This document shows positions 4,010-56,698 of a DNA stretch of 64,000 nt, piece after piece. Both the position numbers and the translations under genes were made by a program. The notes under the pieces are model-generated. The model was not told where the DNA came from, ran no database searches, and saw only the letters and a program-made list of their open reading frames with translations. The stretch spans positions 868,001 to 932,000 of the forward strand of contig NZ_CP096247.1 of assembly GCF_023204875.1 (NCBI RefSeq), in the 5' to 3' direction. Position 1 is the stretch's first letter. Each line of letters starts with the position of its first letter. The stretch comes from Prevotella sp. E15-22. GTDB lineage: Bacteria; Bacteroidota; Bacteroidia; Bacteroidales; Bacteroidaceae.

Positions 4010-4408
4010 ATGGGATTTATTAAAGAATTCAAGGAGTTTGCCATGAAGGGCAATGTAATGGACATGGCAGTTGGTGTGATCATCGGTGCTGCGTTTGGCA
4101 AAATTGTTAGTAGCTTGGTGGATGATGTACTGATGCCGCTGGTTGGTATGATTACAGGCAATGTTGATTTCACAGGTCTGGCGTTCCAGATTGGTGAGGG
4201 CGAAGAGGCTGCTGTCCTGAAGTATGGTAACTTCATCCAAAATACTGTTGATTTTATCATTGTGGCCTTCTGTATTTTCCTGATGCTGAAGGGTATCAAT
4301 AAACTGAATCGTAAGAAGGAAGAGCCTGCTTCCGAGCCTGAGGCTCCTAAGGGTCCCACCCAAGAAGAGTTGCTGGCCGAGATTCGCGACTTGCTGAAGC
4401 AGAAATAG
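4010..4408 (+). CDS. mscL: Large-conductance mechanosensitive channel
   Basis: A 132-residue inner-membrane channel that opens under membrane tension to release solutes during osmotic downshock. The N-terminal amphipathic helix ([14 protein letters not shown]) and the TM1 glycine/alanine-rich stretch [15 protein letters not shown] are diagnostic. TM2 is around residues 77-98, followed by a charged tail ending in [12 protein letters not shown]. Length is normal for the family. A weak stem-loop, CACCTT with AAGGGTG, follows the stop at 4412-4438. Monocistronic. Confidence 0.96.
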
Positions 4409-4575
4409 GCCACACCTTTTATTTAATATAAGGGTGCGGGTGTCATTTTGTCTGCTCATTCTGACATTTTGTCTTACTTTCTTGCACTGGCATTGATGTT
4501 GCATCATGGTTGTCGAGCAAGATGCTCAGAATGATTAAAATGTTTAATATTAATAATATTTTGGAGGACAAAACT

Positions 4576-43750: not shown

Positions 43751-44183
43751 TTCGTCCAAACTTTGGGGTTCACTTCATTCTTGGCCCCAATTTTTTCTAA
43801 TTCTTTCCAATTCTTTTCCTTCTCGGGCCCTTTGGGCCCCCTTCCTTCCTGATTTGAAAAGAATAAGCAAGAATAGGCAAAAATTCTTCCCAACAATAAA
43901 AAATAATAATTAATTCTTTCCCATTCTTGGCCCCAATTTTTTCTAATTCTTTCCAATTCTTTTCCTTCTCGGGCCCTTAGGGCCCCCTTCTTTCCTGATT
44001 TGAAAAGAATAAGCAAGAATAGGAAAAAATTCTTCCCAACAATTAAAAACAATAATTATTTCTTTCCCATTCTTGGCCCCAATTCTTTCTCATTGTTTCC
44101 AATTCTTTTCCATCTCTCAGGGGCCTTGGCCCCACATTCTTTTCCCTCTCTCAAATGATGTTTTAAAAAATTCTATACTTTTC

Positions 44184-44215
44184 TTGTATTATGTGGAAAT
44201 TTCTTTGTACCTTTG
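44184..44215 (+). promoter_or_regulatory. Promoter of polysaccharide locus 2
   Basis: TTG at 44184-44186 and TACCTTTG at 44208-44215, 21 bases apart. I see no flanking inverted repeats that would make it an invertible capsule promoter. Confidence 0.65.
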
Positions 44216-44221
44216 CATCGG

Positions 44222-44380
44222 CAAAGCACCTGAAAACAGGCCCTTTTCCGCTAAGGTAATAATATGCAAATCATGCATGTAGCTGGAAATCAGCGCATAA
44301 GATGAGAAGCTCACAAACTAACCCCTTAAACGTCCCCGCAATATCCTTATGCGGTGACCCCCTCCTTTTGTCTTTCTCGT
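44222..44380 (+). promoter_or_regulatory. Structured leader before the UpxY-like gene
   Basis: About 160 untranslated bases. Possible structures are GCTGGAAATCAGC (44283-44294) and the long-range pair CGCATAAG (44294-44301) with CTTATGCG (44346-44353). A 13-codon ORF starts at 44264. The 11-mer CCTTTTCCGCT at 44242-44252 also occurs in the 54-bp repeats at 53 and 59 kb. In Bacteroides the UpxY protein acts on the leader of its own capsule transcript, so this is the likely target region. Confidence 0.5.
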
Positions 44381-44962
44381 ATGATGTCCAATGATGCCCC
44401 GACGCCCCGTCGGGCGCAAATTTTTTGGTACCCCATGCGAGTCACCTATGGTCGTGAGGAGGCCATTCGCGACGTTTTAAATGAGTTAGGCGTGCGCACC
44501 TTTCTCCCCATGCAGCGATTGCGCGGCTGGGTCGACGACTCCGGCGAGCCCCACGAAAACCTTCAGCCCGCCATTCGCAATCTCATCTTTGTCTATGCCT
44601 CCCAGGAGCGCATCACCGAGTTGAAGATGTACAACAAGGCCTGTCATCCTTTGCGCTACATCACCAACCCCTTTTCCCATAGCGATGACGATTATCTCCT
44701 CACGGTGCCCGAACGCCAGATGAACAACTTCATCCGCGTGGCCTCTGTCCAGGACGATCGTCTGTATTACCTCGACCCCAATGCCGATTATCTGAAGACC
44801 CCCGGCAAGCGCGTGCGCATCACCGATGGCGACTTCAAGGATGCCGAAGGCGTCATCAAGCGCATCAAGAGTAACAAGCGTGTGGTCGTCGAGATCAAAG
44901 GCGTGGCTGCCGTAGCCATCACCTTTGTGCCCACAGTCTGGCTCCAGCCCATCGAAGAGTAG
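44381..44962 (+). CDS. UpxY-like transcription antiterminator (NusG family)
   Basis: A 193-residue cytoplasmic protein. The N-terminal NGN-like region (IFWYPMRVTYGREEAIRDVLNELGVRTFLPMQ) and the C-terminal KOW-like region (GKRVRITDGDFKDAEGVIKRIKSNKRVVVEI) match UpxY/NusG paralogues that lie first in Bacteroidales capsule loci and stop early termination of their own operon. I start at the ATG pair at 44381. The frame could extend to 44354, but the first nine codons look unlike the family. It stands right after a promoter and long leader, as expected. Confidence 0.88.
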   Translation: MMSNDAPTPRRAQIFWYPMRVTYGREEAIRDVLNELGVRTFLPMQRLRGWVDDSGEPHENLQPAIRNLIFVYASQERITELKMYNKACHPLRYITNPFSHSDDDYLLTVPERQMNNFIRVASVQDDRLYYLDPNADYLKTPGKRVRITDGDFKDAEGVIKRIKSNKRVVVEIKGVAAVAITFVPTVWLQPIEE

Positions 44963-44973
44963 CTCCATAGTCC

Positions 44974-45849
44974 ATGCGCCTTGTCCCATCCCTTCTGTTC
45001 CTGCTTCTGATGCTCTTCGCATCCTGCGAGAAACCCCAGATGAACGAAGCCGACGACCAAGACGACAAGAAGCAGAGCAACCTCACGGTCAGCATCTTCC
45101 AGATAGAGCAGACCCCCTTCAGCGAGTTCACCAGGAACCAGCAGGACATGCCCACACGCATCAGTTTTGCCGCCTACGACATGGAAGGCGAGCGCGTGAA
45201 GCAAATCAATCAGAAGTCAGGCGATGCCGACTATGGCCAAGCCCGTTTCCTGTTAACCCCCGGCACCTATCAGTTGGTAGTGGTGGCCCATAGCAGTAAT
45301 GGCAACCCCACGATGACCAACCTTGGCAAGATACAGTTCACCAATGCCCAGGGCTATACCGACACCTTTCTGGCCGTCGATACCGTGGAAGTAACCACCC
45401 AGAGTCAGACCCTTGATGTCAGTCCCCAGCGCATTGTCTCCCTCTGTCGGTTTGTCGTCACCGATACCTATCCCCAGAATGTTGCCAAGCTCCATTTTCT
45501 TTATACCGGAGGCTCAGGCGCATTCGATGCCCATACCGGCCTTGGCAGTGTGAACAGCAGTCAGGCCATGGAAGTCGAAGTCACCAAAGACCGCAAAGAG
45601 TTCGACCTCTATACCTTTCTCCACAGTGAGGAAGACACCATCGACCTTCAAGTCACAGCCATCGACAAGAACGGCATCATAGCCCACCAGCGCCAGTTCC
45701 AGGTGCCCATGGCCCAACGCCAGATCACCAGGTTCTCAGGTCCCTTCTTTGGCGGCAATGGGGGAGGCGGCACCACCGATGAAAGCCTTTCTGTGGGCAT
45801 CACCATCAACACCCAGTGGGATGGTGAATACAACGTCACCTTTCAGTAA
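44974..45849 (+). CDS. FimB/Mfa2-like lipoprotein
   Basis: A 291-residue lipoprotein with lipobox LFASC near residue 18. Features of Mfa2/FimB anchor proteins are [43 protein letters not shown] (the turn before the second strand set) and [13 protein letters not shown] near the end, followed by a glycine-rich linker and [17 protein letters not shown]. It starts 11 bases after the UpxY-like gene and lies 17 bases before the dehydrogenase gene, inside a capsule operon. This is an unusual place for a fimbrial-type lipoprotein. Confidence 0.65.
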
Positions 45850-45866
45850 GAACAAAAACAAAAGAT

Positions 45867-47258
45867 ATGAAAATTGCAGTAGCAGGCACCGGCTATGTCG
45901 GTATGAGTATCGCCACTCTGTTGGCACAGCACAACCACGTCACAGCCGTGGATGTCATTCCCGAGAAAGTCGAGAAGATCAATAATCGCATCTCACCCAT
46001 TCAGGACGAATACATAGAAAAGTACCTAAAAGATACCTTCATTCTTCCTTGCGTAGGAGAGGCATCTACTCCTCTCCCTCAACAGGGAGAGGCCGGGAGA
46101 GGGTCTTTAATAGCTACCCTTGATGGCGCTTCAGCCTATAAGGATGCCGACTTCGTCGTCATTGCGGCCCCCACCAACTACGACCCCCAAAAGAATTTCT
46201 TCGACACCCATCATATCGAGGATGTCATCGACCTCGTCTTGAGTGTCAATCCCGATGCCGTGATGGTCATCAAGAGCACCATCCCCGTGGGCTATTGCCG
46301 CTCATTGTACGTCAAGTACGCCTTGAAGTTCCTGACCGACCCTGCATTGAAAGGAAAGACGTTCAATCTGCTTTTCTCCCCCGAGTTCCTGCGCGAGAGC
46401 AAAGCCCTTTACGATAACCTCTATCCCTCTCGTATCATCGTGGGCTATCCCAAGGTTCTGCCTGCCGACAGAAATAAGAAGTGGGACGAGGAAAATGCCG
46501 CCATTGCCGCCATTGGCAATCCCGAGGCAGAAGCCAAGGCCAAGACCTTCGCCAGCCTGCTTCAACAGGGTGCGATAAAAGAAAATATCGACACCCTGTT
46601 CATGGGAATGACGGAAGCAGAGGCCGTGAAACTCTTCGCTAATACATACCTTGCCCTGCGTGTCAGCTACTTCAACGAGCTCGACACCTATGCCGAGGTC
46701 AAGGGTCTCGACTCCCAAGCTATCATCTCTGGCGTGGGCCTCGACCCCCGCATCGGCACCCACTACAACAACCCCAGCTTTGGTTATGGCGGCTACTGCC
46801 TCCCCAAGGACACCAAACAGCTCCTGGCTAACTATGCCGATGTGCCCCAGAACATGATGACCGCCATCGTCGAGAGTAACCGCACCCGTAAGGACTTCAT
46901 TGCCGACGAAGTCCTTCGTAAGGCCGGCTGGTACGCTTACAGCACTGATAACCAGTACGATGGCAGTAAGGAGCCCGTCACTATCGGTGTCTATCGTCTC
47001 ACCATGAAGAGCAACTCCGACAACTTCCGCCAAAGCGCCATCCAGGGCATCATGAAGCGCATCAAGGCCAAGGGAGCCAATATAATTATCTACGAGCCAA
47101 CCCTCGAAGATGGAACAACCTTCTTCGGATCTCAGGTGGTGAACGATTTGAAAAAATTCAAATCACTTAGCAAGGCTATCATTGCCAATCGCTACGATGC
47201 CTGCTTGGACGACGTACACGACAAAGTGTATACTCGTGATATTTTCAAGAGGGACTAA
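45867..47258 (+). CDS. ugd: UDP-glucose 6-dehydrogenase-like nucleotide-sugar dehydrogenase, with an in-frame insertion
   Basis: A 463-residue cytoplasmic enzyme that oxidises a UDP-sugar to the uronic acid for capsule. It has the NAD motif [18 protein letters not shown], the IAAPTNYDP loop, [20 protein letters not shown] and the catalytic cysteine in [12 protein letters not shown]. Length is about 40-50 residues above short Ugd forms. Residues 59-81 ([19 protein letters not shown] region), between EKYLKDT and [15 protein letters not shown], are foreign and come from a palindromic repeat at 46055-46103; family members run through this loop directly. The reading frame stays open, so the enzyme may still work. 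Confidence 0.88.
46055..46103. repeat. Palindromic repeat element inside the dehydrogenase gene
   Basis: GGAGAGG (46056-46062) pairs with CCTCTCC (46071-46077), CTCCCT (46074-46079) with AGGGAG (46084-46089), and the unit ends in CCGGGAGAGGG. Such CT/GA palindromes with the core CTCTCCCT-AAC-AGGGAGAGGCCGGGAGAGG are dispersed intergenic repeats in many bacteria. Here one is translated. Confidence 0.75.
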
Positions 47259-47293
47259 TAGTATCTATGAATCTTATTGCATAAATAGAATTA

Positions 47294-48289
47294 ATGAATA
47301 TCCTGTACATCATAGGTAATGGCTTAGACATAGCCCATCATATGAAGACGTCCTATCAGGATTTCTTCAAATATTATCTTGCTCTTCCATCAGATGATTA
47401 TAAAATCGATTCGATGAAGCATGATATCAAGAGTCATCGATATGAGACTTGGGCAGATTTAGAGATAGGTCTGGGGCAATATTCATCCCATTGCATTAAC
47501 AAAGGTGAGTTTCTGAGATGTTTGTTAGATATTAAATCGAATCTAAAGACATACCTTCAGAAAGAATCCGAGAAAATCACAGGGTATTCGCTTAAGTCTA
47601 CATCAAGTTTCTTAAATCTGGGTTCTTTCTTGGATCCAGAACCCAAAAGCCGATATGATTATTATGTAGGTCGTTTTGCATCAAACAAGCGATTAGATGT
47701 CAATATTATGACATTTAATTACACGTCTACATTGGAATGGTTGTTTGATTTTTCCGGTGGAGCTAAGGCACTTGCTCCTAATACATGGTTAGAGTCCATA
47801 CAACATGTACATGGGGTGTTAGACAACATGATGGTAATGGGGGTGAACGATTCCGACCAGATTGCCAATACATCTTTTAATACAGATGAGGATGTGATGG
47901 AAGATTTCGTTAAACCCGAGTATAACGATGCCTGCATGAATAACAAAAACAAAGTATGCGAATCGCTTATCCGTAAAGCAGATCTTATCGTACTTTATGG
48001 CACCTCTTTAGGTAAGTCTGATGAAAAATGGTGGAAGCTCATTGGGCAAAGAATGAGTCTTGAAAACAACTATCCTTTATTGGTGTTCCTTCCTTATGAC
48101 GAAAAGAAAGACCAAGCAGCAGAGCCCAACCACCTGAGACGATGGGTAATGCAAAGCGTCCGCGAAATAAAGGAGAAGTTCGCTATACAGCTCGATGATA
48201 AAGTATTAGCTTCCAGAATCTGTGTTGCTTTCAATAAACGCCTGTTTAATATCAGCAAGGATGCACAAAAAACTGTAATGACACGATGA
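47294..48289 (+). CDS. AbiH family protein
   Basis: A 331-residue protein matching the abortive-infection AbiH family: start NILYIIGNGLDIAHHMKTSYQDFFKYY, the FNYTSTLEWLF motif, HVHGVL and the late LIVLYGTSLGKSDEKWW. AbiH from Lactococcus gives phage resistance; its mechanism is unclear. It stands alone between ugd and the AAA ATPase operon, 35 bases after ugd, and its base composition is AT-rich compared with ugd, suggesting it was acquired. Confidence 0.88.
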   Translation: MNILYIIGNGLDIAHHMKTSYQDFFKYYLALPSDDYKIDSMKHDIKSHRYETWADLEIGLGQYSSHCINKGEFLRCLLDIKSNLKTYLQKESEKITGYSLKSTSSFLNLGSFLDPEPKSRYDYYVGRFASNKRLDVNIMTFNYTSTLEWLFDFSGGAKALAPNTWLESIQHVHGVLDNMMVMGVNDSDQIANTSFNTDEDVMEDFVKPEYNDACMNNKNKVCESLIRKADLIVLYGTSLGKSDEKWWKLIGQRMSLENNYPLLVFLPYDEKKDQAAEPNHLRRWVMQSVREIKEKFAIQLDDKVLASRICVAFNKRLFNISKDAQKTVMTR

Positions 48290-48354
48290 AACGAACTTTA
48301 CGGTTAAAATATATTAAAAATTACATGCTTTAAAACGATTATATAGAAAAGTTG

Positions 48355-48362
48355 TATCTTTG
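48355..48362 (+). promoter_or_regulatory. -7 box of the AAA ATPase operon
   Basis: TATCTTTG, 26 bases before the ATG. It gives the AAA-unknown-MBL-membrane gene run its own transcription, independent of the capsule operon. Confidence 0.6.
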
Positions 48363-48388
48363 TAAGCAAAAAAGTAAACTATTCTTTT

Positions 48389-49738
48389 ATGAGTACTTAT
48401 AAATATAAGATGTCAGACTATCATGCAGTCCGTTCAGCGGACATTGTTGTTGATGGTCTTACGATCTTGGCTGGTGAAAATGGATGTGGAAAATCAACGC
48501 TATCTCGTTGGTTATATTATCTTGTTAATGGAGTTCAACAATTTGATAGACTCGTAATTAAAGATTACGTGGAAAAAGTTGAACGACTGATTCGTCAGCA
48601 GAGAATGGCTGCAAGAGAAATGCGCTATTATATTCAGAGTAGAGATACTTCTTCAAATAGAAGTATAAGCGATATTTCGTATAATTCTGTTAAGCAATTT
48701 AAAACCTCGGACTCTGATGAAGATATTATTCAGCAATGTCAAGAGAACTTTGCTCTGTCTATTCATAATCTAAGTGATTTAATCGTAGATTTCCTGAATA
48801 ACACAAAGTCGGGTGTTCGCCGTGATCGTATTTTGGCGTACCTTAAGATCGATGCTAATGAAGCTATGATGGATTCGCATCAGGTCGCAGAAAACTTTGT
48901 AGATAAAAATCTGCGTCTATTAAGAAAATTTTCTGATCAGTTATATGTTGATTTGGAAAAACGTTCTTTTGAGTGTTTGATGAAGAATATTTGTCATGAA
49001 TATGAAGAAGATGATAATCCTCCACAGTCTTTGCATTTATTTGAGGATGATGTTGATTTGATTGATGACGGAAGAGTTTCATCTCTATTTAGTCTTCAAC
49101 GTGCCATTTATGTTGATACTCCTATGGCATTGACAAATGACTATGCTGAAAATGTTTTTTGGAGAGAATTGAGAAACTTGGTGCAACAATCTAAGCAGGA
49201 ATTGGGGCTTCCTGAGAAAAAACTTCTACGTAGAATTAAAAATATTCTCCATGGTGAAGCCAAAATGGTTAAAGTAGATTCTCCTTTTGATGAAGAAGAA
49301 TTGAGATTTGTAAGTGATGATGGTAAGGTCAATATTGAAATTGAGAAGGCCGCCACAGGATTTAAGACTTTCACATATCTTCAGCGTCTATTGGAAAATG
49401 GCTTCCTCGGTGATAAATGTTTACTGTTGATTGATGAGCCTGAAGCTCATTTACATCCTCAGTGGATTGTGGAGTATGCTCGTATCTTGGTTCTTTTACA
49501 TAAAGAGCTGGGATTAAAGATTATGGTTGCCACACATAATCCTGATATGGTAGCTGCACTAAAATCTATTGCTGAGCGTGAGCAGGTTCTTGATAAGACA
49601 CATTTCTATATTGCAAAGTCTTCAGAGAACTCATATGGTTATGATTACAAGGATTTAGGTGGAGATGTGAGTGAGATCTTTAAATCTTTCAATATAGCGC
49701 TTTCAAGAATTGAGTCATATGGAACCAGTAGTTTATAA
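48389..49738 (+). CDS. AAA/SMC-like ATPase, probable defence component
   Basis: A 449-residue cytoplasmic P-loop ATPase of the AAA_21/OLD type. Walker A is GENGCGKST at residues 29-37. The middle is helical (residues 55-240), with a likely signature region AATGFKTFTYLQRLLENG, Walker B LLLIDEPEAHLHPQW and the switch histidine in VATHNPDM. There is no TOPRIM nuclease domain, so an effector must be elsewhere. It overlaps the next gene by 20 bases. ATPases of this class act as sensors in Lamassu, Septu, PARIS and OLD-type anti-phage systems. Confidence 0.85.
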   Translation: MSTYKYKMSDYHAVRSADIVVDGLTILAGENGCGKSTLSRWLYYLVNGVQQFDRLVIKDYVEKVERLIRQQRMAAREMRYYIQSRDTSSNRSISDISYNSVKQFKTSDSDEDIIQQCQENFALSIHNLSDLIVDFLNNTKSGVRRDRILAYLKIDANEAMMDSHQVAENFVDKNLRLLRKFSDQLYVDLEKRSFECLMKNICHEYEEDDNPPQSLHLFEDDVDLIDDGRVSSLFSLQRAIYVDTPMALTNDYAENVFWRELRNLVQQSKQELGLPEKKLLRRIKNILHGEAKMVKVDSPFDEEELRFVSDDGKVNIEIEKAATGFKTFTYLQRLLENGFLGDKCLLLIDEPEAHLHPQWIVEYARILVLLHKELGLKIMVATHNPDMVAALKSIAEREQVLDKTHFYIAKSSENSYGYDYKDLGGDVSEIFKSFNIALSRIESYGTSSL

Positions 49739-50501
49739 TAACGAATTCCTACGGCATCACCCTTTGATAGAATGTTGTTTAAGTACCTTAAATACTGTTT
49801 CAGAACGCGATTACCCAGGAAAAAACTATTTCAATCCGGAGATTGAATGTTTAGATATTGATACATATGAGTGTAAACATAGTCATGGAGAACGCGGTTG
49901 TACGGCTGATGCAGTAATTGGTATTAGCGCCTGCAAGAATAAGGTGTTAAGTGGTCATCGTCTCCAGATAGTTGAATTACGAATAGACTTTAAATCTCCT
50001 AAAAATTTACGCAAAGATGAACTGGAAAACAAGGTTACGCATACAAAGGAATTATTAGGCACGGAATTGCCAGTTGATACTTACAGCATATTTGTTTTTT
50101 CAGAAAAGGTAGCACCTCAGGCACGTCATTGGGTAGAATCCCAAAAACATGAGGGTGGTGAGATTCGATTTTGCAAAGCATATTCAGTGCAGGAATTTCA
50201 TAATAATATATTGTCTGTTGATGATATACCGTATGTCCCTCAATATAATCCAAACTCAATTTCCGAAGAGTTGAATAAGTTGGTTGATGATGAGTCCTGG
50301 AATAAATTGTGTGAAAAGATGTCGTTTTGGATAAAACTGGCAGGAGAATTGAGATATGGTAATATCTATGAATACGATAGTCTTAAAGAAACGCTAACAA
50401 AGTGGTGGAGTGCTTTTCGTGCGAATTGTCCGATTATTGATGACGATGATGAACTGAATGCTCTTATTGTCGATGAAGACATTGAAACAGTTCTGAAATA
50501 A
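49719..50501 (+). CDS. Unknown protein of the AAA-MBL operon
   Basis: A 260-residue soluble protein, start ATG 49719 (the TTG at 49710 is poorer), overlapping the ATPase end by 20 bases. I recognise no family. The region GERGCTADAVIGISACKNK then QIVELRIDFKSPKNL has the look of a nuclease-like alpha/beta core (D-x-x, then a strand with E-x-R-x-D), and RHWVESQKHEGGEIRFCKAY follows. A PD-(D/E)XK relation is a guess. The C-terminal third is helical and acidic. Tight coupling to the ATPase suggests a partner or effector. Confidence 0.6.
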   Translation: MEPVVYNNEFLRHHPLIECCLSTLNTVSERDYPGKNYFNPEIECLDIDTYECKHSHGERGCTADAVIGISACKNKVLSGHRLQIVELRIDFKSPKNLRKDELENKVTHTKELLGTELPVDTYSIFVFSEKVAPQARHWVESQKHEGGEIRFCKAYSVQEFHNNILSVDDIPYVPQYNPNSISEELNKLVDDESWNKLCEKMSFWIKLAGELRYGNIYEYDSLKETLTKWWSAFRANCPIIDDDDELNALIVDEDIETVLK

Positions 50502-50524
50502 ACACGATTTCCCAAAATACAGTT

Positions 50525-51385
50525 ATGGCAAAACAGGCAACTATGAAAGTGTGGGATGTACAACTTGGGTTGGCAATCCATATCAAGGCTCCTAATGGAA
50601 AATACCTTGTTATTGACATGGGTACCGGCAACTGGGAGAGTGGTAATACATCCCCTTTGTCACTGTTGCGCTATAAGGATATTCATTATATGATAATCAC
50701 ACACCCACATCTAGACCATATAGATGACATCCTTCAATTTGACAATAATACACCTACGGTTCTTTGGAGAGCGACTGCTATCACAAATGACGAGGTGATG
50801 GAGGATGTTCGTGATTGTGATAAGCCTAAGTTTGAAAAGTATTGTGAAATTAACGATAGGTTTAGCCGCGCTATTAGTTCGGATGAAGATCCAACTACTG
50901 AAACTCCCTTTGATGGAATGACAGTAGTTAAATATGCTACAGTGCTTTGTGATAAATCAAACTTTAATAATTTCAGTCCAGTAACGATTGTTTGTTTGAG
51001 TGGCATTAAAGTTGTTATATGTGGTGACAATGAAACGGCCTCTTTTGAAAAATTGATGAATCAAACAGGTTTTACAGACGCTGTTAGTGATGCGGATATT
51101 CTCGTAGCGGCCCATCATGGTCGCGAAACTGGCTATTATAAGGATTTTGTTGACAAAGTGAACCCACGTTTGACAATAATATCTGATACATCTAAATCAT
51201 CAACAACCGCTCAGACAAAATATACAAATGCGAGTCGCGGTTGGGATGTTCATAATAAGAATAAAGGCAAGGATGAAAAACGTTATTGCTTAACGACTCG
51301 AAGTGATGGAAATATTGAAATCGAGTTTGGAGAGAGTAACGACCCGAATTTTAAAAATGTTCTTTCTGTTACTATTCATGCTTAG
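50525..51385 (+). CDS. Metallo-beta-lactamase fold hydrolase, ComEC-like
   Basis: A 286-residue cytoplasmic hydrolase. The metal motif ITHPHLDHIDD gives HxHxDH at residues 60-65. GDNE and AAHHGRETGYYKDF supply later metal ligands, in the arrangement seen in ComEC/Rec2 C-terminal domains. Stand-alone versions occur near defence genes and may act on DNA, RNA or nucleotides. It starts 23 bases after the unknown protein and ends 12 bases before the membrane protein. Confidence 0.85.
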   Translation: MAKQATMKVWDVQLGLAIHIKAPNGKYLVIDMGTGNWESGNTSPLSLLRYKDIHYMIITHPHLDHIDDILQFDNNTPTVLWRATAITNDEVMEDVRDCDKPKFEKYCEINDRFSRAISSDEDPTTETPFDGMTVVKYATVLCDKSNFNNFSPVTIVCLSGIKVVICGDNETASFEKLMNQTGFTDAVSDADILVAAHHGRETGYYKDFVDKVNPRLTIISDTSKSSTTAQTKYTNASRGWDVHNKNKGKDEKRYCLTTRSDGNIEIEFGESNDPNFKNVLSVTIHA

Positions 51386-51397
51386 TACTATAGACTC

Positions 51398-51898
51398 ATG
51401 GAGAATTTACTTGATAGGCTATCATCTTATAACATACTGAATTATCTCATCCCAGGTGTACTATTCTTGGTATTGGTAGATGCCTTTGATATTGCGCCCA
51501 TTGAGGAGAAAAATATATTGCTGATGCTTTTTGGAGGCTATTTTGCAGGTATGGTCTTGAGTCGAGTAGGCTCTGTTATAATCGAACCATGGTTTAAGAA
51601 GTGGAAGATAGTAAAGTATGCACAATATAAGGATTTTCTTGATGCAGAAGCAAGGGATTCGAAGATTTCGACTTTGTTGTCAGAAAGCAATATGTTCCGC
51701 ACATTTGTTGCGATGTTTCTATTCTTGCTAATTCTATTTGGCATTTGCATGATTCCAAATGTTAAAGGATGGTTGAGGACACCATGGGCAGTTGTCGTTA
51801 TGATTTTCCTAATGTTGATGCTATTTGTGTTTTCATACCGCAAGCAGTCTTCTTTTATACGCAAGCGAGTAGAACATATAATAAAGAGTCAGTCGTAA
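51398..51898 (+). CDS. Four-helix membrane protein of the AAA-MBL operon
   Basis: A 166-residue inner-membrane protein. Two hydrophobic stretches near the start (YNILNYLIPGVLFLVLVDAF, about residues 12-31, and ILLMLFGGYFAGMVL, about 39-54) and two near the end (FVAMFLFLLILFGICMI, about 106-123; AVVVMIFLMLMLFVFSY) enclose a soluble loop of about 50 residues. The LLDRLSSYNILNYLIPG opening is common in uncharacterised Bacteroidetes proteins. Possible membrane effector or anchor of the system. Function unknown. Confidence 0.7.
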   Translation: MENLLDRLSSYNILNYLIPGVLFLVLVDAFDIAPIEEKNILLMLFGGYFAGMVLSRVGSVIIEPWFKKWKIVKYAQYKDFLDAEARDSKISTLLSESNMFRTFVAMFLFLLILFGICMIPNVKGWLRTPWAVVVMIFLMLMLFVFSYRKQSSFIRKRVEHIIKSQS

Positions 51899-51944
51899 GT
51901 CGAATTTCTATTCTAAGGTAGATGGAAGAGATTTGCCAATAGCG

Positions 51945-52043
51945 ATGATTCAACTTAATCCACAATATGAGGCGATATTTGATGCTCGGAACATTGATGA
52001 AGATTGCAATAATATAGCTGTATCGATATGCAGAAACTTGTAA
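51945..52043 (+). CDS. Possible 32-residue small protein
   Basis: ATG at 51945 opens MIQLNPQYEAIFDARNIDED and ends within the next gene (16-base overlap). It would couple translation of the small P-loop gene. Could be a remnant of a longer protein. Confidence 0.3.
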   Translation: MIQLNPQYEAIFDARNIDEDCNNIAVSICRNL

Positions 52044-52453
52044 TAGCAAATAGAGGCTCTAAAGAGCAAGGGAAAACATCTTCTATCCGAGAGGTGTTCA
52101 ATATTCTTGCTGCCAAATATCCTGCAAATGTCTATATTGACTATGGTGATATTATGGCAACCATTAAGATTGGGGATGTTCTGGTAGGTTTGGAGAGTCA
52201 AGGCGATCCTGGTTCTCGTATATTTGACTCTTTGGAGAAGTTCGTGGAATTGGGTTGTGATGTCATTGTGTGCGCCTGTCGGTCTTACGGAGATACGACC
52301 GATGCTGTATATGGGTTGGCAAATAATGGCTACCAGGTTATATTTGCCCAGAATGACAAATCTGATGATGAAGCAATGCAAGTGGTACTGAACAAGAAAT
52401 ATGCTACTCGCGTTGTAGATATGATAGAGGAACGAATTAGTGGTGATTTCTAG
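52028..52453 (+). CDS. Small P-loop NTPase
   Basis: A 141-residue protein with a perfect Walker A, GSKEQGKTSS (residues 9-18), at the start. VYIDYGDIMATIKIGDVLVGLESQGDPGSRIFDS follows and VIVCACRSYGDTT looks like a Walker B/sensor strand. Apart from the P-loop I recognise no family; the size fits a minimal nucleotide kinase-like fold or a regulatory NTPase. It is co-directional with the AAA-MBL operon, 129 bases after the membrane protein, so it may or may not belong to it. Confidence 0.6.
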   Translation: MQKLVIANRGSKEQGKTSSIREVFNILAAKYPANVYIDYGDIMATIKIGDVLVGLESQGDPGSRIFDSLEKFVELGCDVIVCACRSYGDTTDAVYGLANNGYQVIFAQNDKSDDEAMQVVLNKKYATRVVDMIEERISGDF

Positions 52454-52481
52454 TCCAGACGAGTTGTTAAGTGCGATGCCA

Positions 52482-52511
52482 GGGACCGGGGGGGACAGGT
52501 CCCCTCTGTCC
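52482..52511. repeat. GGGACC/GGTCCC palindromic element at the start of the HEPN-like gene
   Basis: GGGACC (52482-52487) pairs with GGTCCC (52498-52503), and GGACAG (52493-52498) with CTGTCC (52506-52511), so two hairpins compete. The core resembles REP-type repeats of the GGGGACAGGTCCCC kind. It lies one base before the likely ATG of the next gene. Confidence 0.6.
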
Positions 52512-52934
52512 ATGACACGAGTCCAGATGACTGACTTTGAGCGGAAGATATACGATGCGGTGACGTACAATGCGTTCCTGTTCTTGAAGGAGGCGCTGGG
52601 GCGTTTGCTGGAGCGCGATGCGGAAGGGAACGGCAAGATCGACAAGGAATTGCTGACGCTGACTTGTGCTGAACTGCAGATTGCGCTGGAGTTGGCAGTA
52701 AGGGCTGTGGTGATTCGGAGGGATGGCATCAAGGGCGTGCTTAAGAGCTCCCAGAAGGAACTCAAGGAGGATGATATCATTCGCCACTACGAAAACAAAA
52801 CGCTGAAGGTTGAGGACTTTGAAAAATTGAAGAACCACCTTAAGAAACATAGCGTTACGTCACTAAAAAAAGAAGAGTTCGAAGAGGTTGAGCGTTTTCA
52901 GCTATACCGCAACAAGATTTCCCAGCTAATGTGA
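52512..52934 (+). pseudogene. HEPN-like protein, probably truncated
   Basis: 140 residues from ATG 52512. The helical layout (FERKIYDAVTYNAFLFLKEALGRLL, ELQIALELAVRAVVIRRDG) and the ending FQLYRNKISQLM resemble a HEPN RNase domain. In HEPN proteins the R-x4-6-H motif reads RNKISHL or similar; here the histidine is glutamine and the protein stops two residues later. It is therefore probably a broken remnant. Base use is more GC-rich than in the genes before it. The frame is open back to 52440, across the palindromic element. Family call is tentative. Confidence 0.45.
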
Positions 52935-53443
52935 ACTTCCGCATAACAGCCTGATACTGAGTGTAAAACGAAAACACCGTTTCCTGTTTCATCAGACATT
53001 CATCAGACATCCGGGAAATTGAGCCTTTTCCGCTCATTTCTATACAAAATTACTACTTTTTACCCGAATACGCAAGAGCGTTAAGATTTCTTATCCATTA
53101 AGAGTAAAGAAATGTTAATTTAAGAAAGACTGGTTGAGATGACAAAAGGGGCGTTTGAGGGGAAAATGAGAGAAAATCGAGAAAAATCAGGGTTCGGACT
53201 GCTCTGAGATAATCCGAGAGAAGTTGAAAAGACCCTTGTTTAACTAGAAAACAAAATTTCACAATAATAAACATTCTCTAACAAAGACGGTGGTAAAATG
53301 ACAGGAGTTTGACTTCTGGCTAATGACTTGAAACAAATATCTGATTGCACAGGTGGTCGCATAACGATGCAGTTCGATACTGCCAATTGGAACCAATAAG
53401 TTTTGTTTGAATTATAATTGCATAAATCGATAATACACATAAT
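52935..53443. other. 509-bp intergenic region with no supported gene
   Basis: It contains the first copy of the 54-bp direct repeat (52995-53048) and its diverged extension to about 53095. The remainder is AT-rich with short purine-rich runs (GAGGGGAAAATGAGAGAAAA). I see no tRNA, no convincing promoter box and no coding frame. Confidence 0.6.
52995..53048. repeat. 54-bp direct repeat, copy 1
   Basis: Identical over 54 bases to 59274-59327. It starts GACATTCATCAGACATCCGG and contains GAGCCTTTTCCGCTC, which can fold as GAGC/GCTC. Similarity continues, weakened, for about 45 more bases (AATACGCAAGAGCGTTAAG here, AATAGGCAATAGCTTTAAG there). Confidence 0.9.
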
Positions 53444-53764
53444 ATGGCAATATTCACCAACCTATTAGAAAAGGCGGCTGCTCGTATAAATGAGATACGC
53501 CAGAGCTGTACGTCATATAAGATTGGCAAAACAGGTATGCTTCTTGAATCGAGGCTCAATGAGCCTGATTACAAAGATGATTATACTTCGATTGAACCAG
53601 TATATGAATCAAATAGTAAGGAATTGTGCAGTTTTGCTGAGTCAGAACTGATAAATACTTTTATAGATGATCCTCAATGCGACAATAAGAAAGATGGAGA
53701 TCATAGCATAGGAGATAATTTGGCAGATACTCCGCCATTCTATGTTTATGTTGTCAGTCGATAA
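53444..53764 (+). CDS. Small protein, possibly GIY-YIG-like
   Basis: A 106-residue protein. YKIGKTGMLLESRLNEPDY and ELCSFAESELINTFIDDP resemble the small GIY-YIG-type domain of T5orf172 proteins, but the typical GIY and YIG strands are only partly present (YKIGKTG) and the last residue (R) closes the protein early. The end overlaps a 55-residue ORF by 17 bases. Function unknown. Confidence 0.45.
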   Translation: MAIFTNLLEKAAARINEIRQSCTSYKIGKTGMLLESRLNEPDYKDDYTSIEPVYESNSKELCSFAESELINTFIDDPQCDNKKDGDHSIGDNLADTPPFYVYVVSR

Positions 53765-53915
53765 TAGGCAGACTTTAAATAGGATATTACCTGAAGGGTT
53801 GATACATATCTTAGAGAACTACGAGTCAGATTTCCATTTTGACAGGAGGAGACCTGGAGAAGTATACTTTCAGAGAATTCCTTTGTTTAGGGTGATTAGA
53901 AAAATAAGGTATTGA
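53748..53915 (+). CDS. Possible 55-residue protein
   Basis: ATG 53748 to TGA 53915: MLSVDNRQTLNRILPEGL at the start and FQRIPLFRVIRKIRY at the end. It overlaps the preceding gene by 17 bases in another frame, so translational coupling is possible. Basic C-terminus. Could also be a 3' fragment of a longer gene. Not recognised. Confidence 0.35.
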   Translation: MLSVDNRQTLNRILPEGLIHILENYESDFHFDRRRPGEVYFQRIPLFRVIRKIRY

Positions 53916-53936
53916 ATAACAAAAACATTTAGAATT

Positions 53937-54275
53937 ATGGCAATACAGATAAATCAAATAGAAATACTGAAGGAATATTTCAATGGCGTGATGAACAGAG
54001 CAGACCATCATGCAGATGATGTAAACGAGATAGTGTTGGCATTGATTGGCGGTGTGATTTGGCGAGCAGAAGGAAACTTTGAGGTTAAGCAATACGGTGG
54101 TGCGCCTGCAAACATCCTTTGGATGTATGTGGGTGACAATAGATATTGCTTCAAGTTTAACCACGAGACGGGTAAGATAGAATGTCATGAGGGTGGACAT
54201 AATGGCGAACTGATAGAATCTTTCGATAACCAAACTTCGATTTCAAAGGTTAAGCAGTTCTTTGCAAATATTTGA
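53937..54275 (+). CDS. Conserved-looking small protein of unknown function
   Basis: A 112-residue soluble protein: MAIQINQIEILKEYFNGVM then NRADHHADDVNEIVLALIGGVIWRAEG, a glycine-rich turn (QYGGAPANILWMYVGDNRYCF) and a beta-rich end (HETGKIECHEGGHNG). The pattern is of small proteins carried in mobile or cassette regions of Prevotella and Bacteroides. No catalytic or toxin motif is clear. It precedes the sugar-nucleotide cassette by 78 bases. Confidence 0.55.
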   Translation: MAIQINQIEILKEYFNGVMNRADHHADDVNEIVLALIGGVIWRAEGNFEVKQYGGAPANILWMYVGDNRYCFKFNHETGKIECHEGGHNGELIESFDNQTSISKVKQFFANI

Positions 54276-54353
54276 ATATCGTATATATTTGATAATAGAA
54301 AATAGTTTGCTATATAGAGATAGTTTTTTAACATTTGTCTTCTAACTTTTAAA

Positions 54354-54926
54354 ATGAACATAATAAAAACAGCAATAGAAGGCGTCCTAATCATCGAACC
54401 AAAGATTTTCGAGGATGCCCGGGGGTATTTCTTTGAGTCATTCTCCCAGCGTGAATTCGATGAGAAAGTGGGGAGGGTAAATTTTGTACAGGACAACGAG
54501 AGTAAATCATCCTATGGAGTAATGCGTGGACTGCATTTTCAACGCCCCCCCTTTACTCAGAGCAAGTTGGTTCGTTGCGTAAAAGGTGCTGTGCTTGATG
54601 TTGCTGTTGACATTCGTAAAGGTAGTTCTACGTATGGTCAGCATGTGGCTGTAGAACTTACTGAGGATAACCACCGTCAGTTCTTTGTACCGAGGGGCTT
54701 TGCACACGGCTTTGCCGTGCTGAGCGAAACGGCAGTTTTCCAGTATAAGTGTGATGAGTTCTATCATCCTGAGGCTGATGGAGGAATCAGTATTTTGGAT
54801 GATTCTCTTGGTATTGATTGGCGTATTCCTACAGAAAAGGCATTACTGTCTGAGAAAGATACAAAGCATGCAATGCTTAAAGATTTCGAAAGCCCATTTG
54901 ATATTAACGTAAACCTTTACAAATGA
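54354..54926 (+). CDS. rfbC: dTDP-4-dehydrorhamnose 3,5-epimerase
   Basis: A 190-residue cytoplasmic cupin enzyme that epimerises dTDP-4-keto-6-deoxyglucose at C3 and C5. EPKIFEDARGYFFESF, QDNESKSSYGVMRGLHFQRPP (with the active-site histidine in LHFQ), RKGSSTYGQHVAVEL and PRGFAHGFAVLSE are all typical. rfbB and rfbD, needed to complete dTDP-rhamnose, are not in the window. Confidence 0.95.
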   Translation: MNIIKTAIEGVLIIEPKIFEDARGYFFESFSQREFDEKVGRVNFVQDNESKSSYGVMRGLHFQRPPFTQSKLVRCVKGAVLDVAVDIRKGSSTYGQHVAVELTEDNHRQFFVPRGFAHGFAVLSETAVFQYKCDEFYHPEADGGISILDDSLGIDWRIPTEKALLSEKDTKHAMLKDFESPFDINVNLYK

Positions 54927-55006
54927 ATTATCGTGCAAACCGAATGCAGCAAGCTCGCTTATTGCTGAGGTGCAGCCGATGATGCATAAATTAACAGAGT
55001 AAATTT

Positions 55007-55921
55007 ATGAAGGGTATAGTTCTCGCTGGCGGCTCCGGAACCCGCCTTTATCCCATAACAAAGGGTGTAAGTAAACAGTTACTCCCTATTTATGATAAAC
55101 CGATGGTTTATTATCCGATTTCTGCACTCATGCTTGCAGGAATTAGGGATATCCTTATCATCTCTACTCCTTATGATCTCCCTGGATTCAAACGCCTGTT
55201 AGGTGACGGTTCTGATTATGGTGTACACTTCGAGTATGCGGAACAACCAAGTCCGGACGGCCTTGCCCAAGCCTTTATCATAGGTGAGAAGTTCATTGGC
55301 AATGATTCTGCTTGCCTTGTACTTGGGGACAACATTTTTTATGGTGCAGGTTTCACAGCTCTGCTTCGTAGGGCAGTTGAAGATGCTGAAGTTAATGGAA
55401 AGGCATCAGTATTTGGCTATTGGGTTTCTGATCCAGAACGTTATGGTGTTGCTGAATTCGATAAACAAGGCAACTGCCTTTCTATTGAGGAAAAACCAGC
55501 TAATCCTAAGTCAAACTATGCTGTGGTAGGTTTATACTTCTATCCTAACAAAGTGGTGGATGTGGCTAAACATATCAAGCCGTCAGCAAGAGGCGAACTG
55601 GAGATTACCACTGTTAATCAAGAATTCCTAAAAGATGGCGAATTGCTGGTAAAGGTGTTTGGACGCGGCTTTGCTTGGTTAGATACCGGTACACACGACA
55701 GCCTTGCAGAAGCTTCTACATTCGTTGAGGTGATTGAAAAGCGCCAAGGACTGAAAGTTGCTTGTTTAGAGGGTATTGCTTATCGCAATGGCTGGATAAA
55801 CGAAGAGCGTATGCGTGAAATTGCTAAGCCCATGCTCAAAAATCAGTATGGTCAGTACCTTTTGAAAGTAATAGATGAGATGAAGGAGGATATTAACAGC
55901 GGAACGCTGGAACATGTGTAA
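55007..55921 (+). CDS. rfbA: Glucose-1-phosphate thymidylyltransferase
   Basis: A 304-residue cytoplasmic enzyme that makes dTDP-glucose from dTTP and glucose-1-phosphate. The nucleotide site [28 protein letters not shown] is complete, followed by [19 protein letters not shown] and [12 protein letters not shown]. Length is normal. It follows rfbC by 80 bases and supplies the substrate for the rhamnose branch. Confidence 0.96.
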
Positions 55922-55942
55922 TAGTATTTAAATAGCAAATTT

Positions 55943-56698
55943 ATGAAACCAGTAATAATAGCAGGGCCTTGTGTCATTGAATCACAGGATTGCCTAAATG
56001 AAGTCGCTGAGGAACTTGTTCGCCTGAACAAGAAATATGATTTGAGTATCATTTTCAAGTCTTCCTTTGATAAGGCAAATCGTACCTCTATCAAATCATT
56101 CCGTGGCCCTGGACTTGAAAAAGGACTGACGATGTTGAACGATATACGTGAGAAGTATGGCCTTAAACTTCTGACAGATATTCACGAAAGCTATCAAGCT
56201 GCCCCCGCAGGTGAGGTGGTAGATGTTTTGCAGATACCTGCTTTCCTTTGCCGCCAGACAGACTTGCTGGTAGCAGCAGCCCGGACAGGAAAGGTTGTAA
56301 ACATTAAGAAAGCACAATTTCTGAGCGGTCAAGATATGGAATACCCAGTACAGAAGGTACGGGAAAGTGGTAATGATAAGGTATGGCTTACAGAGAGAGG
56401 GAATATGTATGGCTATAATAACCTTGCTGTTGACTTCCGCAATATAGCGGATATGAAGAAGTTCACAGATACAGTAATCATGGATTGTACTCACTCTGTT
56501 CAGAGACCAGGCGCCGCTGGTGGTAAGACTGGTGGAAATCGTGAATTTGTTCCAGCAATGGCTTTGGCGGCTAAAGCGTTTGGCGCAACGGGTTATTTCT
56601 TTGAAATCCATCCTAATCCTGAAGTTGCAAAGAGCGATGGCCCGAATATGTTGGCATTAAAAGACTTCGAGAAGGTGGTCAAATCATTATTGGATTGA
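55943..56698 (+). CDS. kdsA: 3-deoxy-8-phosphooctulonate synthase (Kdo-8-P synthase)
   Basis: A 251-residue cytoplasmic aldolase-type enzyme that joins phosphoenolpyruvate and arabinose-5-phosphate. IAGPCVIES, the KSSFDKANRTSIKSFRGPGLEKGL phosphate-binding block, TDIHES, IPAFLCRQTDLL and NIKKAQFL are diagnostic. Its stop overlaps the next start by one base. This copy sits with a matching phosphatase, isomerase and CMP-transferase, so the Kdo is probably for capsule and distinct from the essential LPS copy. Confidence 0.95.
   Translation: MKPVIIAGPCVIESQDCLNEVAEELVRLNKKYDLSIIFKSSFDKANRTSIKSFRGPGLEKGLTMLNDIREKYGLKLLTDIHESYQAAPAGEVVDVLQIPAFLCRQTDLLVAAARTGKVVNIKKAQFLSGQDMEYPVQKVRESGNDKVWLTERGNMYGYNNLAVDFRNIADMKKFTDTVIMDCTHSVQRPGAAGGKTGGNREFVPAMALAAKAFGATGYFFEIHPNPEVAKSDGPNMLALKDFEKVVKSLLD

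Follow-up and report, generated by a model that had tools for sequence, protein, structure and literature searches.

Do four closely spaced genes in a capsule locus of Prevotella sp. E15-22 make up one new anti-phage system, or do they belong to separate units? The genes lie in a window of 64,000 nucleotides (positions 868001-932000 of the one-contig 3.3 Mb genome) and encode an ATPase, a protein without a recognised family (protein 2), a ComEC-type metallo-beta-lactamase-fold hydrolase (MBL) and a four-helix membrane protein (genes 1 to 4). A preliminary description of the locus had treated them as a single new four-gene system. We found instead that they are probably two adjacent two-gene defence modules that follow AbiH in the capsule locus, an ATPase plus nuclease-like pair (module 1) and the PADLOC candidate PDC-M48 (module 2), and we put the probability of this reading at about 0.78. 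The four genes are not regarded as one system because the two pairs occur apart and because genes 3 and 4 match PDC-M48. Seven ATPase plus protein 2 loci outside the window had neither MBL nor membrane gene in the stretches fetched, which leaves a single four-gene system unsupported, and the expected recurrence of the four-gene order was not seen either: one genome with all four genes was found, and 10 prophage loci with the membrane gene had neither ATPase nor protein 2.

For module 2, the MBL (286 amino acids; 50525..51385, + strand) matched PDC-M48B (PDLC04675) at 3e-96 over residues 1-282, and the membrane protein (166 amino acids; 51398..51898, + strand), whose gene starts 12 bp downstream, matched PDC-M48A (PDLC04670) at 9e-53 over residues 1-161. 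Judged by these profile matches, genes 3 and 4 are PDC-M48, a candidate that PADLOC already lists, and this match to a named system refutes the novelty of the four-gene set; the claim that no described system fits held, as far as searched, for genes 1 and 2 but failed for genes 3 and 4. The name PDC-M48 was not found in the main texts of the literature searched. The PADLOC PDC candidates are attributed to the guilt-by-embedding bioRxiv preprint of Payne et al. (2024), as cited in the available part of PMC12988326, and the mentions of 'metallo' in the available part of the DefensePredictor paper refer to metallophosphatases and not to MBLs. The assignments first made for the two proteins stood: the MBL also matched PF00753 and the NCBIfam ComEC family (1.5e-8) and keeps the metal motifs T-H-P-H-L-D-H, G-D and H-H-G, and four hydrophobic segments were counted in the membrane protein.

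Three mobile elements carried the PDC-M48 pair without genes 1 and 2: the P2-like phage P24E6b (L027), a Citrobacter plasmid of 5.5 kb (L028) and an Arsenophonus plasmid, the last with a remote MBL (4e-9). The phage-type pair was also found in 44 of 5426 Escherichia coli genomes; the two places opened, out of 45, both belong to P2-like prophages, where the pair is flanked by the replication endonuclease gene and the portal gene, the antiviral hotspot between gpA and gpQ described by Rousset et al. (2022; PMC9122126, available part). The two genes are convergent in both of these prophages and in P24E6b, not an operon, whereas they share a strand in the window, where they are also preceded by the ATPase and protein 2. 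When viral contigs were scanned with a profile, the membrane gene turned up at 10 loci, 8 of them with a convergent adjacent MBL, a count that includes near copies (L072-L075; L067 and L068) and so corresponds to about four kinds; L069 stops at the membrane gene at the contig end and L071 has no MBL. Neither ATPase nor protein 2 was found in any of these 10 viral or prophage loci, and a single-sequence scan of viral contigs with the membrane protein gave no match. In locus L017, a PDC-M48A gene lies at the contig end, near Septu genes.

Module 1 was likewise found on its own. Protein 2 occurred in 4 of 201 family genomes (the window genome G000, G326, G419 and G456) and strong PDC-M48 matches in three (G000, G417 and G386), so that the window genome was the only one with both; the two draws held 201 genomes each and were the same set, judging by the genome handles. 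Among 296 phylum genomes protein 2 was present in the window genome alone, and a pattern scan of one genome per species across 84,980 species yielded 6 protein 2 loci, two of them known beforehand. In total, 7 loci in 6 genomes were recovered outside the window (L024 and L026 come from one metagenome-assembled genome), all 7 with the ATPase directly upstream at 34-46% identity, although a contig start cuts one copy; the fetched stretches around them contained no MBL or membrane gene. The relatives of the window genes come from Bacteroidales, and one genome, Xylanibacter muris (G326, locus L023), belongs to the same genus group as the window genome. Plasmids, phages and viral contigs yielded no relatives of protein 2 at the sensitivities used, and the ATPase profile gave 5 weak loci in viral contigs. 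Type I hsdS and hsdR flank the pair in L024, where one extra open reading frame (ORF) also follows hsdS; the pair adjoins hsdR in L019, and in L018 it is downstream of a UpxY-like gene and upstream of sugar genes. The ATPase and protein 2 are therefore a separate pair, and they are the new, unlisted part of the locus. The proposed defence setting was supported for both halves, by the hotspot of P2-like prophages and the 5.5-kb plasmid for module 2 and by the hsdS and hsdR neighbours for module 1.

The ATPase (449 amino acids; 48389..49738, + strand) has a Walker A motif GENGCGKST and a Walker B motif LLLIDEPEAHLHP, and in Pfam it exceeded the curated cut-off with AAA_15 and AAA_21 alone, in line with an OLD/ABC-type protein. 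In PADLOC it scored 7e-23 with HEC-02A, 2.6e-17 with AriA and 9.5e-14 with PtuA; residues 281-401 matched the HEC-02A model and residues 307-413 a HEC-02B model. Pfam detected no TOPRIM domain in this protein and the frame stops at residue 449, which agrees with the absence of TOPRIM noted at the outset. Gabija and OLD were rejected for the ATPase because the C-terminal TOPRIM domain is absent.

Protein 2 (260 amino acids; 49719..50501, + strand) matched nothing in Pfam, PADLOC, NCBIfam, PHROGs or a PDB profile search and, as first described, is unrecognised; Pfam at E-values up to 5 gave no family for the window protein and, among 7 aligned members, two single-member matches at chance level. 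This alignment excludes L025, which has a shortened frame, and includes L021, also shortened, unchanged. The start of protein 2 is most likely the ATG at 49719, which overlaps the 3' end of the ATPase gene; the mechanical call was TTG at 49710, and the ATG is preferred since an ME start is common to 6 of the 7 aligned members, L005 being the one with a different start. AlphaFold2 on the 7 sequences gave a model with a mean predicted local distance difference test (pLDDT) score of 89.2 and a predicted template modelling (pTM) score of 0.72, the other four models ranging from 57 to 82. The modelled core runs from two consecutive strands (65-73 and 76-88) through a helix at residues 99-113 to a further strand at 123-127. 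D64 directly precedes the first strand and E86-x-R88 closes the second, and these residues would therefore meet in a hairpin. The usual catalytic residue of a PD-(D/E)xK active site is K, and the model fits a putative PD-(D/E)xK-like nuclease with R in its place. Could protein 2 instead be a catalytically dead adaptor or antitoxin that has a nuclease-like fold and is not the effector? All 7 aligned members carry E-x-R in place of E-x-K, which speaks for this, but none of D64, E86, R88 and the helix residues K105 and K110 varies, and this makes an active site likelier than a bare scaffold; we regard a dead protein as rather unlikely, though it deserves to be kept in mind. TOPRIM was rejected for protein 2 because the first D of the LDxD motif is N in L005.

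The membrane protein of module 2 also matched the Csx27 model (2.3e-7), as did L032 (7e-7), L033 (2.8e-10), L035 (1.6e-5), L036 (2.2e-4) and L059 (1.3e-6). In the reverse test, a profile lacking any Cas13b-linked Csx27 picked out the L055 Csx27 from 2237 ORFs, at 1.4e-4. By profile searches in both directions, the window protein and Csx27 of CRISPR VI-B are relatives, and the two are alike as polytopic membrane proteins with a common N-terminal YD...L.PG motif; a profile-profile comparison was weak (probability 32%) and counts against the relationship. The partner in L013 scored 1.2e-4 with the reverse profile, and there is therefore no sharp line between Csx27-like and other partners. The Csx27 model had matches in 12 of the 296 phylum genomes and none in the 14 control genomes; in the 11 besides the window genome, Cas13b adjoins in L055 (the only one of them scanned for it) and an MBL in L059, and 9 had no nearby MBL match. 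The Csx27 gene beside Cas13b (L055:2260-6330) is in genome G230, of the same family. Csx27 of CRISPR VI-B is an accessory of a Cas13b system, whereas the partner of the window protein is an MBL; Cas13b was not found beside the window gene, the largest ORF in the interval 44000-56000 having 463 amino acids; the search covered the ORFs of this interval and no CRISPR arrays. A link between Csx27-type membrane proteins, competence and ubiquitin is not new, since the title of Makarova et al. (2019), given in the reference list of PMC7642515, already joins them.

These similarities raise the question of whether genes 3 and 4 could be a competence-derived device for DNA uptake or degradation and not for defence, in which the MBL would degrade DNA and the Csx27-like protein would form a channel. 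The MBL is of ComEC type, and its model at 1e-10 matched 76 of 395 phylum genomes, 71 of them only through frames of 790-923 amino acids, which were assigned to ComEC by size and not scanned individually; furthermore, Csx27 proteins were predicted as a channel by Makarova et al. (2019), according to the available part of PMC7642515. However, P2-like prophages carry the pair in their antiviral hotspot, and it is also found on a plasmid of 5.5 kb; Pfam gave no competence family among the 9 ORFs at 47294-54275, and the MBL was the sole competence match of the 7 ORFs scanned with NCBIfam. A competence-derived device thus seems improbable, and we favour defence for module 2.

The MBL family was found beside changing partners. 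Matches occurred in 34 plasmid records, of which we opened all 8 in which coverage was at least 80%, as well as 2 from the remaining 26; 7 of the 8 had a polytopic protein adjoining the MBL or one gene on, L034 being the exception. Csx27-like partners were found in L032, L033, L035, L059 and L148 (a PDC-M48A protein) and, one gene away, in L036 and in L037, whose partner was assigned by likeness to L036 and not scanned; the L016 partner is Csx27-like by alignment alone, with PADLOC silent and the reverse profile trained on L016. Other polytopic proteins accompany the MBL in L008, L013, L031, L038 and the second pair in L145, and a patatin phospholipase does so in L145, L146 and L147. No such partner was seen by the MBL in L009, L010, L011, L012 and L034. 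When 24 MBL ORFs below 420 amino acids from the window and 20 fetched loci (21 in total) were compared, 12 adjoined a protein of 140-260 amino acids with at least two hydrophobic segments; a neighbour with at least three was found for 10 of the 24, versus 27 of 590 genes in stretches of at least 8 kb, a comparison biased by loci partly picked for their membrane partner (L059 came from the Csx27 search).

An E2-ThiF-JAB (E2-E1-JAB) fusion precedes the patatin gene in L145 and L147, as confirmed by scanning; L146 was not scanned. In L147 the MBL frame is broken (4042-4494) beside the patatin and E2-E1-JAB genes, and no cyclase was seen in L145-L147, where no search was aimed at one. According to the available part of Iyer et al. 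(2006; PMC1779556, row 6a), E2-E1-JAB proteins almost always adjoin an MBL. This operon type is resembled by L145 and L147, where E2-ThiF-JAB lies beside relatives of the window MBL, and by the Polaromonas naphthalenivorans plasmid L038, where a ThiF protein adjoins the MBL relative; Pnap is itself listed in row 6a. Unlike these, the window gave no match to E1, E2 or JAB when 9 of its ORFs were scanned with Pfam. Type II CBASS (cyclic oligonucleotide-based antiphage signalling system) combines E2-E1-JAB conjugation with a cyclase/nucleotidyltransferase. It is conceivable, though we would not expect it, that a family of modular defence operons shares the ComEC-type MBL as its core, with both the membrane arm and the upstream control module being swapped; the MBL would then stand in for the CBASS nucleotidyltransferase, either as the target of conjugation or by making or breaking a signal. 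If so, the swapped arms would be Csx27-like proteins, other polytopic proteins and patatin phospholipase, and the swapped control would be none, E2-E1-JAB without a cyclase, or the window ATPase with its PD-(D/E)xK-like partner.

Several observations weigh against two defence modules of this composition. The membrane protein occurs without an MBL in L071 and, as a short gene piece without a nearby MBL, on the Neorhizobium plasmid L030, and L034 has an MBL without a membrane partner. The first two His residues of the metal motif are lost in 3 of 12 aligned MBLs (L029, L034 and L038), which argues against one shared catalysis, and R replaces the usual catalytic K of protein 2. No defence gene was seen, by eye only, around L021, L025 and L026. 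Finally, the two pairs share a strand and a gap of 23 bp separates them, so that co-transcription and a functional link are possible. Together with the 12-bp gap inside module 2, this arrangement would also suit one composite system, in which the ATPase and protein 2 act as an upstream module gating PDC-M48 as E2-E1-JAB may do elsewhere, and MBL relatives do adjoin other upstream modules (patatin in L145-L147; E2-E1-JAB in L145 and L147). PDC-M48 is nevertheless missing from the fetched stretches of all 7 module 1 relatives, module 1 from all 10 prophage PDC-M48A loci (0/10), and the window genome is the only one found with all four genes; we consider a composite quite improbable and retain two adjacent modules.

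How might the two modules act? In module 1, the OLD/ABC-type ATPase would sense infection and hold protein 2 until its ATP state changes, which would release or activate protein 2 and let this putative PD-(D/E)xK-like nuclease cut nucleic acid. In module 2, the ComEC-type MBL could be a soluble enzyme or trigger; the Csx27-like protein would be the membrane-acting arm and, after infection has been sensed, would damage or depolarise the membrane. We infer each mechanism separately and give either roughly even odds. Csx28, which is also a VI-B accessory, reportedly forms a membrane pore (PMC12669027, available part) and may serve as a parallel for the Csx27-like arm by analogy only.

The modules belong to a cargo block between ugd (45867-47258) and rfbC (54354-54926), gene names assigned from sequence, which consists of AbiH, the four genes and small downstream ORFs. 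AbiH (47294..48289, + strand; PF14253, 2.5e-35), a separate known abortive-infection gene, was confirmed directly upstream, and the tight packing also held, with all four ORFs present on the + strand and short gaps. Bacteroides promoters have a consensus of -33 and -7 boxes. A Bacteroides-type -7 box TATCTTTG is present at 48355..48362 (+ strand), starting exactly where the preliminary description had begun the four-gene stretch, but the full -33/-7 pattern had no match there, the -33 box being unmatched; an own promoter for the four genes is thus plausible from its -7 box. Downstream, 52028-53764 holds three small ORFs (141, 164 and 106 amino acids), none with a convincing family match, and 53937-54275 encodes VCH_CASS14 (PF18315, 2.4e-24), an integron cassette protein family. 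Three genomes (L016, L018 and the window at 44354-54926) have a capsule locus in which defence-type genes lie close to a UpxY-like antiterminator, and such a locus may be a landing site for them. The ugd gene was matched in 32 of 60 genus genomes; in 10 of the 31 other positive genomes, one of which (L107) stops in ugd, none of the four genes was found 3' of ugd and no clean empty site was seen.

Correcting the four-gene reading leaves two testable units. Through the partner swap of the MBL, two questions become testable: whether membrane-attacking effectors are under the control of a ComEC-type hydrolase, and which role Csx27-family proteins have outside CRISPR VI-B. In PARIS (AriA/AriB) and Septu (PtuA/PtuB), an ATPase senses infection, holds an effector and then frees it. 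The window ATPase is of the same broad class as those of PARIS, Septu and HEC-02, whereas protein 2 matched neither AriB, nor the HNH protein PtuB, nor the HEC-02 partner in PADLOC. PARIS and Septu were therefore rejected, their AriB and HNH PtuB partners being absent and protein 2 having no PADLOC match, and so was HEC-02, where the ATPase matches but protein 2 matches no model. Module 1 would thus follow the logic of AriA/AriB and PtuA/PtuB with another effector fold, adding a nuclease-like partner to the ATPase class of PARIS and Septu.

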